Origin: an uncultured Opitutia bacterium
Lineage (GTDB): Bacteria; Verrucomicrobiota; Verrucomicrobiia; Opitutales; Coraliomargaritaceae
Length of the DNA stretch: 64,000 nucleotides
Reading direction: 5' to 3'
NCBI GenBank assembly: GCA_937136395.1
Contig: CAKZOI010000021.1
Location: forward strand, 186,001 to 250,000
The translations under genes were made by a program, and so were the position numbers. The notes under the pieces were generated by a model. The model searched no databases. It was not told the DNA's origin and saw nothing but the letters and a program-made list of their open reading frames with translations. Numbering within the stretch: position 1 is the stretch's first letter; every line of letters begins with the position of its first letter. This document shows, piece after piece, positions 36,313-40,373 of the stretch.

Positions 36313-36636
36313 TTACTGCGAATCTCCGGATTCCCCTAAACGAAATCGATGCGTCCGTCCTTTAAGGAAATTACGTAAAAACTGATCGCCGCATTCCATG
36401 TAATGCTTGTGCGATGTCGCACGGAAAAGGGCGCTGACCTCACTTTTGGACACTCGAAAGCCAACACCTTCCATGGTCTCGATCATATCCGTGTCTTTCA
36501 TTTCAAAAGCGATGCGCAATTTCCGCAGAATATCATTATTATTGATCGAAGATTTGGATACTTTGGTAGCTGGGCGATCGCTCGGGCTACGGCGTTCTAA
36601 AATAAGACCATCCAAAAATGCATGAAGGTGATCGAG
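36313..36636 (-). pseudogene. DUF1456 (YehS-like) gene, N-terminal half lost at the IS3 junction
   Basis: The open frame from 36636 down to 36313 matches only the second of the two repeats of DUF1456 (YehS) proteins: 'INNNDILRKLRIAFEMKD', then 'GFRVSKSEVSALFRATSHKHY' and 'ECGDQFLRNFLKG'. The residues just upstream, 'LDHLHAFLDGLILERR', match the end of repeat 1 and then stop at 36637-36639, where the IS element begins. The first start codon is a TTG at 36615, so an intact protein is not made. The missing repeat was not found on the other side of the IS. Confidence 0.8.
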
Positions 36637-37600
36637 TTACCCAAACTGGGCCAGAGCTTTCGTTAGTCTGGATGGGTTAATGATGTGTTCTAAGTTGTAG
36701 AGTAAGTCAATGCTGGGGCGCAGGGAGGGCGTAGCCCGACCGGAGGCCCAGCATTGGGTTGGTGGTTCTTCTTTGATCTCCTCCTTAGCAAACTCAAGAG
36801 GCGTGATATATCCAAGAGACCTGTGCGGACGTATATTGTTATACTTCCATAGCCAGTCCTCGATGACGACACGTGCTTCGGACAGAGTCCATAGCTGCTC
36901 TCGGTTCAGGCACTCTTCCCGGAAGCGTGCATTGAAGCTCTCGATGTATCCGTTCTGCCACGGACTGCCTGGTTCGATATGAAGCGTCTTGATTTGATTA
37001 TCTGCCAACTAAGCGCGCAGATCCTTCTCAATGAACTCAGAGCCATTGTCGCTGCGGATATGTTCGGGAGCCCCATGGATATCAATCAGCTCTGAGATAA
37101 TGCGACGCACTTTCCGGGCATTGATCCGCCGGTCCACATAAATACTCAGGCATTCCCGAGTGAACTCGTCGATTATATTGAGCATTCGTAGCTTCCCTCC
37201 ACGCACCGTAGTATCGTGAACGAAGTCCCAGGTCCATACATGGCCCACGGTGCGTCGCTTTAGTCGGCAGCCCGGTAGAGACGCCTTGTCGCCGCTTCTT
37301 AGGCTTCTTGGCTGGAACGGCCAGGCCGAGTTCTCGGCGCAGGCGTTGCACCATGCGTGTGCCAACCTTCCAGCCTTCATCTTTGAGTAACTTCGTCACC
37401 TTGGGATACCCCATCTCGGGATGCTGGTTGGAGACGCGTCGCAGGGCTGCCTTGAGCCTGGCCAGCCATGCATCTGGTTGCTTCGCTTCATAGGCAAAAG
37501 TGCTGCGGTGCAGCCCAAAGTGACGACAGGTCGCACGGGCCGTGCAACGTCCCCCGGAAACAAACTCTTCAGAGACCTGACGCTTGTGTCCGGGGCTCAT
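36637..37600 (-). pseudogene. IS3-family transposase OrfB, inactivated
   Basis: Reads from the ATG at 37600 as HTH_21-type start 'MSPGHKRQVSEEFVSGGRC'. At 37244-37246 an extra base in a C run breaks the frame; the next part resumes at 'GHVWTWDFVHDTT'. The DDE residues lie at 'WTWDF', 'IRSDNGSEFI' and 'GYIESFNARFREE'. A TAG at 37009-37011 replaces a Trp codon after 'EKDLRA'. The stop (36637-36639) lies just outside the terminal repeat, i.e. in flanking DNA. Confidence 0.85.
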
Positions 37601-37866
37601 AACTTTTTTTCAAGCGCCTCCTTCAGCAGCTCTTTGCCGAGCATCTCATCGGCCAACATCCGCTTGAGCCGGGCGTTCTCACGCTGGAGTTCTTTCAATT
37701 GCTTTGCCTGATCAACTTCAAGCATCCCCATCTCACGCTTCCAGCGGTGGAAGGTCTGCTCGCTGATCTGACGCTCACGACAGACGTCTTGGATCGTCTT
37801 GTCACTGCTCTCCGCCTCCCGTAGGATGCGGATCTTCTGTTCGGTTGTGTATCTTTTGCCTTTCAT
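37597..37866 (-). CDS. IS3-family transposase OrfA
   Basis: An 89-aa OrfA with an N-terminal helix-turn-helix ('RYTTEQKIRILREAE', 'VCRERQISEQTFHRWKRE') and a C-terminal leucine-zipper-like helix. It is intact, and ends 'LEKKL' at a -1 frameshift site that leads into OrfB. OrfA binds IS ends and regulates transposition. Not useful without OrfB. Confidence 0.9.
   Translation of the reverse strand: MKGKRYTTEQKIRILREAESSDKTIQDVCRERQISEQTFHRWKREMGMLEVDQAKQLKELQRENARLKRMLADEMLGKELLKEALEKKL
37603..37609 (-). promoter_or_regulatory. Programmed -1 frameshift site of the IS3 element
   Basis: On the minus strand the heptamer A-AAA-AAG lies in the right phase at the end of OrfA (codons gaa-aaa-aag). 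A -1 slip there joins OrfA to OrfB, which starts two codons on in the -1 frame. This is the classical signal of IS3-family fusion transposases. Confidence 0.8.
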
Positions 37867-38238: not shown

Positions 38239-38742
38239 ATGTTAATGGAATTTTCGAGGCGGCGGTTTGTGATTGGGAGTTTGGTGCTGGGGTGTTCGAC
38301 CTTGGTGGGGCGCTTGTGTGGGCAGACGGTTTCTTTGCCTCGTTTGGAACTTGCTTTGCAGGCTTGGGTAGAGACTTTGTTGCCGTCGGATGAGGGCTCT
38401 CTTGGTGCGGGTCGTTTGAATGTGCATCTGGATGTGATCGAACTGGCGAGTGAGAATAAACAGTATCAACAGTTGTTGGAAATTGGTATCCGTTGGGCGG
38501 ATACTGAAGCGCGGAAGCTCGGTGTGGAGGGTTTTGCTGAGCTGTCTCCGGAGCAGGCGGAAGGGCTGGTGAGTCTTGCTGAATCGATGGGCCTACAAAG
38601 TATGCCTGGTTTGTTTTTTTATCATACGCTGAAGGATGCGAAGCGGGTGTATTTTGCACGTAAAGGATCGTGGGGCGGCGTGGGCTTTCCGCATGCGCCT
38701 CAACCCTTGGGCTACATGGATTACACGGAGGCGCCTAAATGA
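38239..38742 (+). CDS. Small, Tat-exported subunit of a dehydrogenase (gluconate 2-dehydrogenase subunit 3 family)
   Basis: A 167-aa protein with a twin-arginine signal 'FSRRRFVIGSLVLGCSTLVG' and a DUF1485-like / gluconate-2-dehydrogenase subunit 3 region ('LELALQAWVETLLP', 'LGVEGFAELSPEQAEGLVSL'). In the known three-subunit gluconate/FAD glucose dehydrogenases this subunit carries the flavoprotein across the membrane. It overlaps the GMC gene by 4 bp (ATGA at 38739-38742), so both are coupled. No cytochrome c subunit follows. Confidence 0.85.
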   Translation: MLMEFSRRRFVIGSLVLGCSTLVGRLCGQTVSLPRLELALQAWVETLLPSDEGSLGAGRLNVHLDVIELASENKQYQQLLEIGIRWADTEARKLGVEGFAELSPEQAEGLVSLAESMGLQSMPGLFFYHTLKDAKRVYFARKGSWGGVGFPHAPQPLGYMDYTEAPK

Positions 38743-40373
38743 GTGCGGACTACGATGTCCTGATCATTGGCTCGGGTGCAGGTGGGGGCACGATGGCGTA
38801 TGCCTTGACTGAGCGCCAGTTGAAGGTGCTGGTCCTGGAGGCGGGGCCGAAGTTTAATCCATTCACCGATTATAAACTGAGCGAGGAATCCTGGGAGACT
38901 CAGTATTTCCCGCATAAGGAACGATCCGAGGGGCGGCATATCTACGCGCCGCTGCAAAAGCTGCATTCGGCTTGGGACGATTTGCGCTCGTGGAATTCGG
39001 TTGCTGGTCGAATGAATCCATCGAACGAGCGTAAGGCCTACAAATACCACCATGTGCGTGGCGTGGGAGGCTCTACGTTAACGTTTACAGGTGAGTCGCA
39101 TCGTATGCATCCGGATGCGATGCAAATGCGATCTCGCTTTGGGGTCGCTGCGGACTGGCCAGTTAATTACGCGGAGCTGGAGTCCTATTATTGCCGTGCG
39201 GAAACCTTGGTTGGTGTGGCGGGTCCTGAAGACGGTGGAGCGCGCTGGCGCAGTGAGCCGTATCCATTGCCTGCGCATGCTTTGGGCTATGCGAGTGTGC
39301 AAATTCAGAAGGGTGCGCGTGTCTTGGACTTGAATTGGGGGCCGAATGCGCGTGCGGCATTGTCGCGTCCGTATGATAAGCGGCCGAGCTGTAATTATTG
39401 TGCAAATTGCACGCGTGGCTGTCCGCGCACGGACAAGGGAAGTGTGGATGTGACCTTCTTACGCAAAGCGGTGGAGAGTGGTCTGTGCGAGATTCGCGCT
39501 GGAGTGGTCGTCACTCGTATTGAGTCGGGCAATGAGGATGCGATACGTGGCGTGCACCTTATCGATGAAGCAGGTGCGGAGGTCTTTCTTGAAACGAAGC
39601 AATTGGTCGTCGCTTGCGGTGCGGTAGAGACGCCGCGTTTGTTATTGGCTTCAGACAACTTGTGCAATGAGTCCGGTCAGGTCGGGCGCAACTTTATGGA
39701 GACCTTGTCATGGTCGGTGAGTGGCTTACACCCAGATCCGATGGGGAGCTATCGCGGTTTGCCGGCAGATAGTATTTGTTGGGATTTTAATGCGCCTGAT
39801 TCGATACCCGATGTGGTGGGTGGTTGCCGTTTCTCGACGGGTGTGCATGAGGCTGGGCTGAATGGTCCGCTGGCCTATTCGAATCGTATCGTTAGCGGCT
39901 GGGGGCGTGCGCATAAAGCTGCGATGCGTGATGCCTTTGGTAAAGTGCTGACGGTTGGGGCGATTGGTGAGTCACTGCCAAATCCGAAGAGTTTTGTGGA
40001 TTTAGATCCTGAAGCAATCGATGTGAATGGTCGACCGTTAGCGCGTATTCATAGTCACTTAGGCCAGGGAGAACTCAAGCGCTTGCGCTTTATGGCAGAA
40101 AAATGCCGCGCGATTTTAAAGGCCTCCGGTGTCGATAAATTTGTCGAGGAGTATGGCACCTATGACTATTTTAGTAGCACGCATGTGTTTGGCACCTGCC
40201 GTATGGGGAATGATCCCGAAAGCTCGGTTGTGGATTCGTATGGCCGCAGCCATCGTTGGAAGAATCTGACGATTATGGATGCGAGTATCTTCCCCAGTTC
40301 AGGCGGCGGCGAATCGCCTTCATTGACCATCGAAGCCTTGGCTTTGCGTAGTGCAGAACGCTTTGCGCGCTAG
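38739..40373 (+). CDS. GMC-family FAD-dependent dehydrogenase with ferredoxin-type Cys motif
   Basis: A 544-aa GMC oxidoreductase. FAD-binding 'VLIIGSGAGGGTMAYALTE' is at the N-terminus; 'GVGGSTLTFTGESHRMHPDA' is the second FAD block; the C-terminus has 'HVFGTCRMGNDPESSVVD' and 'FPSSGGGESPSLTIEALAL'. At residues 218-229 lies 'CNYCANCTRGCP', a CxxCxxCxxxCP motif like a 3Fe-4S or 4Fe-4S ligand set; a Cys cluster here is known in some FAD glucose dehydrogenases. No signal of its own, so export with the Tat subunit is expected. Substrate unknown, sugar or sugar acid likely. Confidence 0.9.
   Translation: MSADYDVLIIGSGAGGGTMAYALTERQLKVLVLEAGPKFNPFTDYKLSEESWETQYFPHKERSEGRHIYAPLQKLHSAWDDLRSWNSVAGRMNPSNERKAYKYHHVRGVGGSTLTFTGESHRMHPDAMQMRSRFGVAADWPVNYAELESYYCRAETLVGVAGPEDGGARWRSEPYPLPAHALGYASVQIQKGARVLDLNWGPNARAALSRPYDKRPSCNYCANCTRGCPRTDKGSVDVTFLRKAVESGLCEIRAGVVVTRIESGNEDAIRGVHLIDEAGAEVFLETKQLVVACGAVETPRLLLASDNLCNESGQVGRNFMETLSWSVSGLHPDPMGSYRGLPADSICWDFNAPDSIPDVVGGCRFSTGVHEAGLNGPLAYSNRIVSGWGRAHKAAMRDAFGKVLTVGAIGESLPNPKSFVDLDPEAIDVNGRPLARIHSHLGQGELKRLRFMAEKCRAILKASGVDKFVEEYGTYDYFSSTHVFGTCRMGNDPESSVVDSYGRSHRWKNLTIMDASIFPSSGGGESPSLTIEALALRSAERFAR

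Follow-up and report, generated by a model that had tools for sequence, protein, structure and literature searches.

A GMC flavoprotein with a four-cysteine, ferredoxin-like motif and a Tat-signal partner in an uncultured Opitutia bacterium

We analysed a 64,000-nucleotide stretch of DNA (hereafter the window) from an uncultured Opitutia bacterium, in which a gene for a GMC flavoprotein lies directly behind a gene for a small protein with a Tat signal (Table 1). As the first-pass annotation had reported, the two genes overlap by 4 bp; the overlap reads ATGA and joins the stop of the partner to the start of the flavoprotein, from which we infer translational coupling. In Pfam searches the flavoprotein matched GMC_oxred_C (80 bits) and GMC_oxred_N (55 bits), both above the cut-off, and a sub-threshold Fer4_10 match sits exactly over its cysteine motif. 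The partner matched PF13618 (Gluconate_2-dh3) with 36.0 bits against a cut-off of 23.4. Profile searches of the bacterium's own genome returned a single PF00732 match and a single PF13618 match, which are this pair. The operon consists of these two genes alone, since a DEAD-box helicase gene is convergent downstream and integrase-core (rve) ORFs, split across frames, lie directly upstream on the minus strand (36313-37863). The flavoprotein gene and the opposite-strand helicase-like gene overlap by 4 bp (40370-40373). By appearance the rve ORFs are an IS3-type transposase, and this element may have displaced the upstream neighbours of the operon. A secreted-looking protein of ~165-200 aa adjoins the GMC pair in five other loci, upstream in L051, L054, L056 and L058 and downstream in L067.

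Table 1 Features of the GMC pair locus, in window coordinates.
Feature	Position	Strand	Detail or basis
Small Tat-signal partner gene ('hitch-hiker'), Gluconate_2-dh3 family PF13618	38239..38742	+	167 aa
Twin-arginine motif S-R-R-R-F (FSRRRF) of the partner signal peptide	38254..38268	+	R7 and R8 nearly invariant in homologues
4-bp ATGA overlap, partner stop/GMC start	38739..38742	+	sequence
GMC flavoprotein gene	38739..40373	+	544 aa; FDH/GDH-like fold by AlphaFold and Foldseek
Codon 115 (Thr) at the BcGDH His105 position	39081..39083	+	His in 28/37 clade members
Cysteine motif CNYCANCTRGCP, C218-N-Y-C221-A-N-C224-T-R-G-C228-P, residues 218-229	39390..39425	+	alignment with BcGDH and FDH
His482, catalytic His of the GMC fold	40182..40184	+	His in 36/37 clade members
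E525-S526, site of the second GMC catalytic residue	40311..40316	+	alignment

The first-pass annotation had assigned the Tat signal to the small partner and none to the flavoprotein, and both assignments stand. The partner carries the FSRRRF motif in its signal peptide, and the flavoprotein begins directly at its FAD-binding strand with no signal peptide of its own. A twin-arginine signal on the partner alone is what is expected of a hitch-hiker, and its two arginines are nearly invariant among homologues; the weak PF10518 (TAT_signal) model matched 3/24 partners in the clade described below. The annotation's view of the partner as unusual was not borne out: it is a standard PF13618 protein, found in 24/24 scanned clade members and also beside the plasmid relatives of the pair. 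No cysteine follows the signal region in the window partner; some other clade partners hold one, none of them conserved. The partner model is all-helical (pLDDT 89), and neither a fold search nor a profile search against the PDB gave a solved-structure match. By analogy, the small subunit may dock to the flavoprotein as in known hitch-hiker systems.

The flavoprotein was modelled with AlphaFold2 from the alignment (pLDDT 87.2, pTM 0.90). The top Foldseek matches were entries for fructose dehydrogenase (FDH) and the FAD glucose dehydrogenase of B. cepacia (BcGDH), with TM 0.79-0.83 and E about 1e-40, followed by pyranose oxidases with E about 1e-27. The same two enzymes were the best solved relatives by sequence (E about 1e-40), and the full-length GMC fold is common to the window protein and the large subunit of Gluconobacter japonicus FDH (PDB 7w2j; TM 0.81-0.82). 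GMC enzymes usually use a catalytic His together with a second His or Asn (PMC6719666), a pair that is common but not universal in the superfamily. Here His482 is kept and the Asn, present in FDH, is replaced by Ser526. The second residue is Asn in 42/43 outgroup sequences but Ser (26), Ala (10) or Gly (1) in the clade, where it lies in an invariant GGGE(S/A/G)P motif that includes Glu525 directly ahead of it. The sister sequence L077 is the sole outgroup sharing Ser at this site. Relative to the outgroups, the clade sequences are one residue longer at this point, and the alignment suggests that the catalytic Asn may have its counterpart in Glu525 and not in Ser526. Placement in the GMC superfamily stands despite the altered pair, as it rests on the two GMC_oxred domains (N and C) and on the FAD fold typical of GMC proteins; activity on alcohols or sugars is only assumed, because the catalytic Asn is missing. 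The window protein also differs from BcGDH in having Thr115 at the position of His105, the proposed covalent link to FAD in that enzyme (PMC6719666).

An iron-sulfur-type cysteine motif had been noted in the first-pass annotation at residues 218-229, and CNYCANCTRGCP is what is read there. Alignment with FAD glucose dehydrogenases, which the annotation had named as a check, is gap-free across this stretch (RPQCCGNNNCMPICP in the window against RPSCNYCANCTRGCP in the known enzymes FDH and GDH), and C218, C224 and C228 coincide with Cys212, Cys218 and Cys222 of BcGDH, which bind a [3Fe-4S] cluster in the crystal structure (PMC6719666). Three of the four cysteines therefore match crystallographic ligand positions, in agreement with their reading as iron-sulfur ligands, and C221 is an extra, fourth cysteine. 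Counted from the first ligand, the cysteines fall at 0, +3, +6 and +10 in the window protein and at 0, +1, +6 and +10 in the known enzymes. In BcGDH the +1 residue, Cys213, is disulfide-bonded to Cys152 of the gamma subunit (PMC6719666); in the window flavoprotein it is replaced by Asn219, and the pair lacks the disulfide cysteines altogether. The catalytic subunit with a Tat hitch-hiker and the three ligand positions are nonetheless common to the window pair and the gamma-alpha complex of BcGDH (PDB 6a2u, 8grj). FDH (7w2j) likewise shares the three ligand positions and the context RPYDxRPxC...CP, with one cysteine moved between its CCGNNNCMPICP and the window CNYCANCTRGCP.

At the level of sequence, the three retained ligands and the new +3 cysteine complete the classical [4Fe-4S] spacing CxxCxxCxxxCP. 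The comparison with [3Fe-4S] enzymes in the first-pass annotation thus held for the three shared ligand positions, but the fourth cysteine makes the pattern [4Fe-4S]-like. The spacing and the terminal Pro are identical to those of bacterial [4Fe-4S] ferredoxins, whereas the GMC motif is embedded in a flavoprotein loop, provides for one cluster only and scores below threshold with the Pfam Fer4 models. Such spacing is no proof of a cubane, as a [3Fe-4S] cluster with a free cysteine, or with a labile fourth iron, would look alike. One relative (L007) carries CIYDGWCDAGCP, with Asp at the fourth-ligand position; Asp here is a feature of some ferredoxins in which one iron can be exchanged.

Conservation of the motif was analysed across a wider set of loci. 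Scanning genome contigs yielded 37 loci: 36 belong to the clade, and the remaining one matches over 67 residues only. In an alignment of 34 homologues (49-74% identity to the window protein, mean column identity 64%), the four motif cysteines are invariant in 34/34, so that poor conservation of the cysteines, which the first-pass annotation had given as grounds for abandoning its reading, was not found. Of the 544 positions, 81 are invariant across all 34 sequences; the other cysteines vary, with C347 (33/34) and C487 (32/34) nearly invariant, and weak Fer4_10 matches occur in 20/34 members. There is one other C..C..C...C string across all six frames of the window, and a chance origin of the motif is excluded by its conservation in the homologues. 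Bias from searching with the CNYCANCT peptide was also considered and rejected. The peptide is present in the window and two homologues only, and a class-wide full-length profile search, independent of the cysteine peptide, gave equal cysteine invariance: all 14 clade members found in 369 genomes have the four cysteines and the small partner (12 are additional; L057 and L058 had already been aligned).

A UFBoot value of 100 supports the clade. L077, the closest outgroup sampled, is 37% identical and has Ala at the +3 position. In most outgroups this position is R, A, N, M, G, L, Y, I or D. A +3 cysteine is found in 7/43 outgroup sequences at four separate tree positions (L079-L082, L097, L100 and L084), with the spacing to the last cysteine off by one residue in L100 and L084. 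The idea that the four-cysteine motif is unique within GMC proteins was therefore rejected, given the same spacing in L079-L082 and L097 and the variants in the other two. L079-L082 come from four genomes of one genus in the same class and form another GMC branch, with CDQCGFCFQGC and the usual catalytic Asn; since its four-cysteine spacing is identical, the +3 cysteine arose or survived more than once. The clade is best classed as an uncharacterised branch of the GMC/hitch-hiker dehydrogenases for which a [4Fe-4S] cluster is predicted. Searches limited to the open-access literature found no description of a GMC protein with a [4Fe-4S] cluster or of one linked to PEP-CTERM.

We consider it probable that the pair is a periplasmic FAD dehydrogenase, co-exported with its small partner, that passes electrons from FAD to an iron-sulfur cluster, probably [4Fe-4S], and on to a separately encoded acceptor. 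The GMC subunit would fold and bind FAD in the cytoplasm, where a cluster, probably of the ferredoxin-type [4Fe-4S], would assemble on C218, C221, C224 and C228. Bound to the partner with the sole signal peptide, it would then cross the Tat pore. Electrons would run from the substrate to FAD and to the cluster (12-13 Å apart in the homologous glucose dehydrogenase), and from there to an acceptor encoded elsewhere, such as a soluble cytochrome c or the membrane quinone system. The main alternative is a [3Fe-4S] cluster exactly as in FDH and GDH, in which C221 would be either uninvolved or a fourth ligand that can be exchanged. In its favour, the wider family conserves the three proven ligands as its core, and [3Fe-4S] is what the homologue of known structure carries, but C221 is invariant throughout the clade while most outgroups have a residue other than Cys there, and we also count against this alternative that several other GMC branches have Cys at that position; we therefore regard it as rather unlikely.

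No c-type cytochrome gene adjoins the GMC pair in the window, and no heme protein turns up repeatedly in the neighbourhoods of clade loci. The first-pass annotation was right that a cytochrome c subunit is absent beside the pair, but this is not distinctive: many plasmid relatives, 31-35% identical, also lack a neighbouring cytochrome, and the missing cytochrome was rejected as a distinguishing mark because its lack is common in such two-gene pairs. Plasmids and chromosomes carry further GMC/PF13618 pairs, whose name comes from subunit 3 of gluconate 2-dehydrogenase; they share with the window pair the architecture, the partner family and the frequent lack of a cytochrome. The plasmid relatives listed have mostly three motif cysteines and keep the Asn, with the exception of the Cereibacter protein (56% identical), which is a clade member. 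As in gluconate 2-dehydrogenase, a PF13618 subunit 3 adjoins the flavoprotein, but the cytochrome c subunit of that enzyme was not found. The three ligand cysteines of DET-type three-subunit FDH/GDH are present, but no three-heme cytochrome lies beside the pair or among the PF00034 and PF13442 matches of the own genome, and the small subunit is of family PF13618, not PF12318. A separate Verrucomicrobiota GMC subclade (L085, L086, L087, L090, L092 and L094) has the motif CxxxxxCxxxxCP, with one extra residue, and adjoins a cytochrome c with 8-9 hemes and 336-405 aa; it is possibly a multiheme-linked dehydrogenase.

An ordinary three-subunit gluconate/glucose-type dehydrogenase with its cytochrome subunit encoded elsewhere appears improbable. 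The own genome does have c-type cytochromes, but those found in PF13442 and PF00034 searches have one CxxCH per protein and none has three; no heme gene recurs beside the clade loci; and the window partner belongs to PF13618, while L104, a Burkholderia relative next to which a three-heme cytochrome is encoded, is paired with a PF12318 protein (122 bits). A structural zinc or disulfide site with no redox role, although also built from four cysteines in other proteins and conceivable for a protein expected to work in an oxidising compartment, was rejected as very improbable from the ligand equivalence with BcGDH, in whose crystal structure three of the four positions bind the Fe-S cluster, and Tat export fits loading of a cofactor in the cytoplasm.

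The commonest Pfam family among 91 scanned neighbour proteins was the PEP-CTERM tail. This association arose from the first locus set, and the class sample provides a semi-independent test. There, a gene with a PEP-CTERM-type tail lies within 1.5 kb of the pair in 6/14 clade loci; five of the tails reach the Pfam cut-off (L129, L130, L136, L137 and G913) and that of L132 is VPLPA-type, just below it. The number expected from the PEP-CTERM gene numbers per genome is 0.18, giving P(>=6) = 8e-9 and P(>=5) = 5e-7 under independence, with kinship ignored and genome sizes rounded. Two of six PEP-CTERM-adjoining loci (L114 and L115) are 90% identical, leaving five lineages that are 54-64% identical to each other. 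An exosortase was found in 12/14 carriers against 115/355 non-carriers (Fisher p = 9e-5), and in 23/36 genomes of the first set against 54/299 sampled Pseudomonadota, both comparisons ignoring kinship. In the window genome, exosortase was matched twice and PEP-CTERM 15 times; no PEP-CTERM tail was recognised beside the window operon or beside its close relatives.

The association with surface-anchored PEP-CTERM proteins suggests a role for the enzyme at the cell envelope or matrix. Whether the link is instead indirect, reflecting a shared lifestyle or lineage and not joint function, we regard as a toss-up. The presence of exosortase depends on lineage (34% of the class sample have it), PEP-CTERM genes are missing beside the window locus and its close relatives, and those next to other clade loci differ in family and orientation; against this stands adjacency in five lineages 54-64% identical to each other, where 0.18 cases were expected. 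More tentatively, this broadly scattered branch could comprise GMC dehydrogenases exported by Tat that have a [4Fe-4S] cluster and a His482/Glu525 pair, lack a dedicated heme subunit and are coupled in function to the PEP-CTERM/exosortase system, oxidising, for instance, a matrix component or a group on PEP-CTERM proteins. The altered catalytic residue and the PEP-CTERM link are new points beyond the first-pass annotation.

The solved glucose dehydrogenase of this type, with [3Fe-4S], serves in glucose sensors, and a natural branch with a fourth cysteine would illustrate how one fold can accommodate changes of cluster type and potential. With two genes and no multi-heme subunit, the pair is also an enzyme complete in itself. 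A genuine PEP-CTERM link would provide a candidate redox enzyme for the exosortase system, about whose physiological role little is understood.
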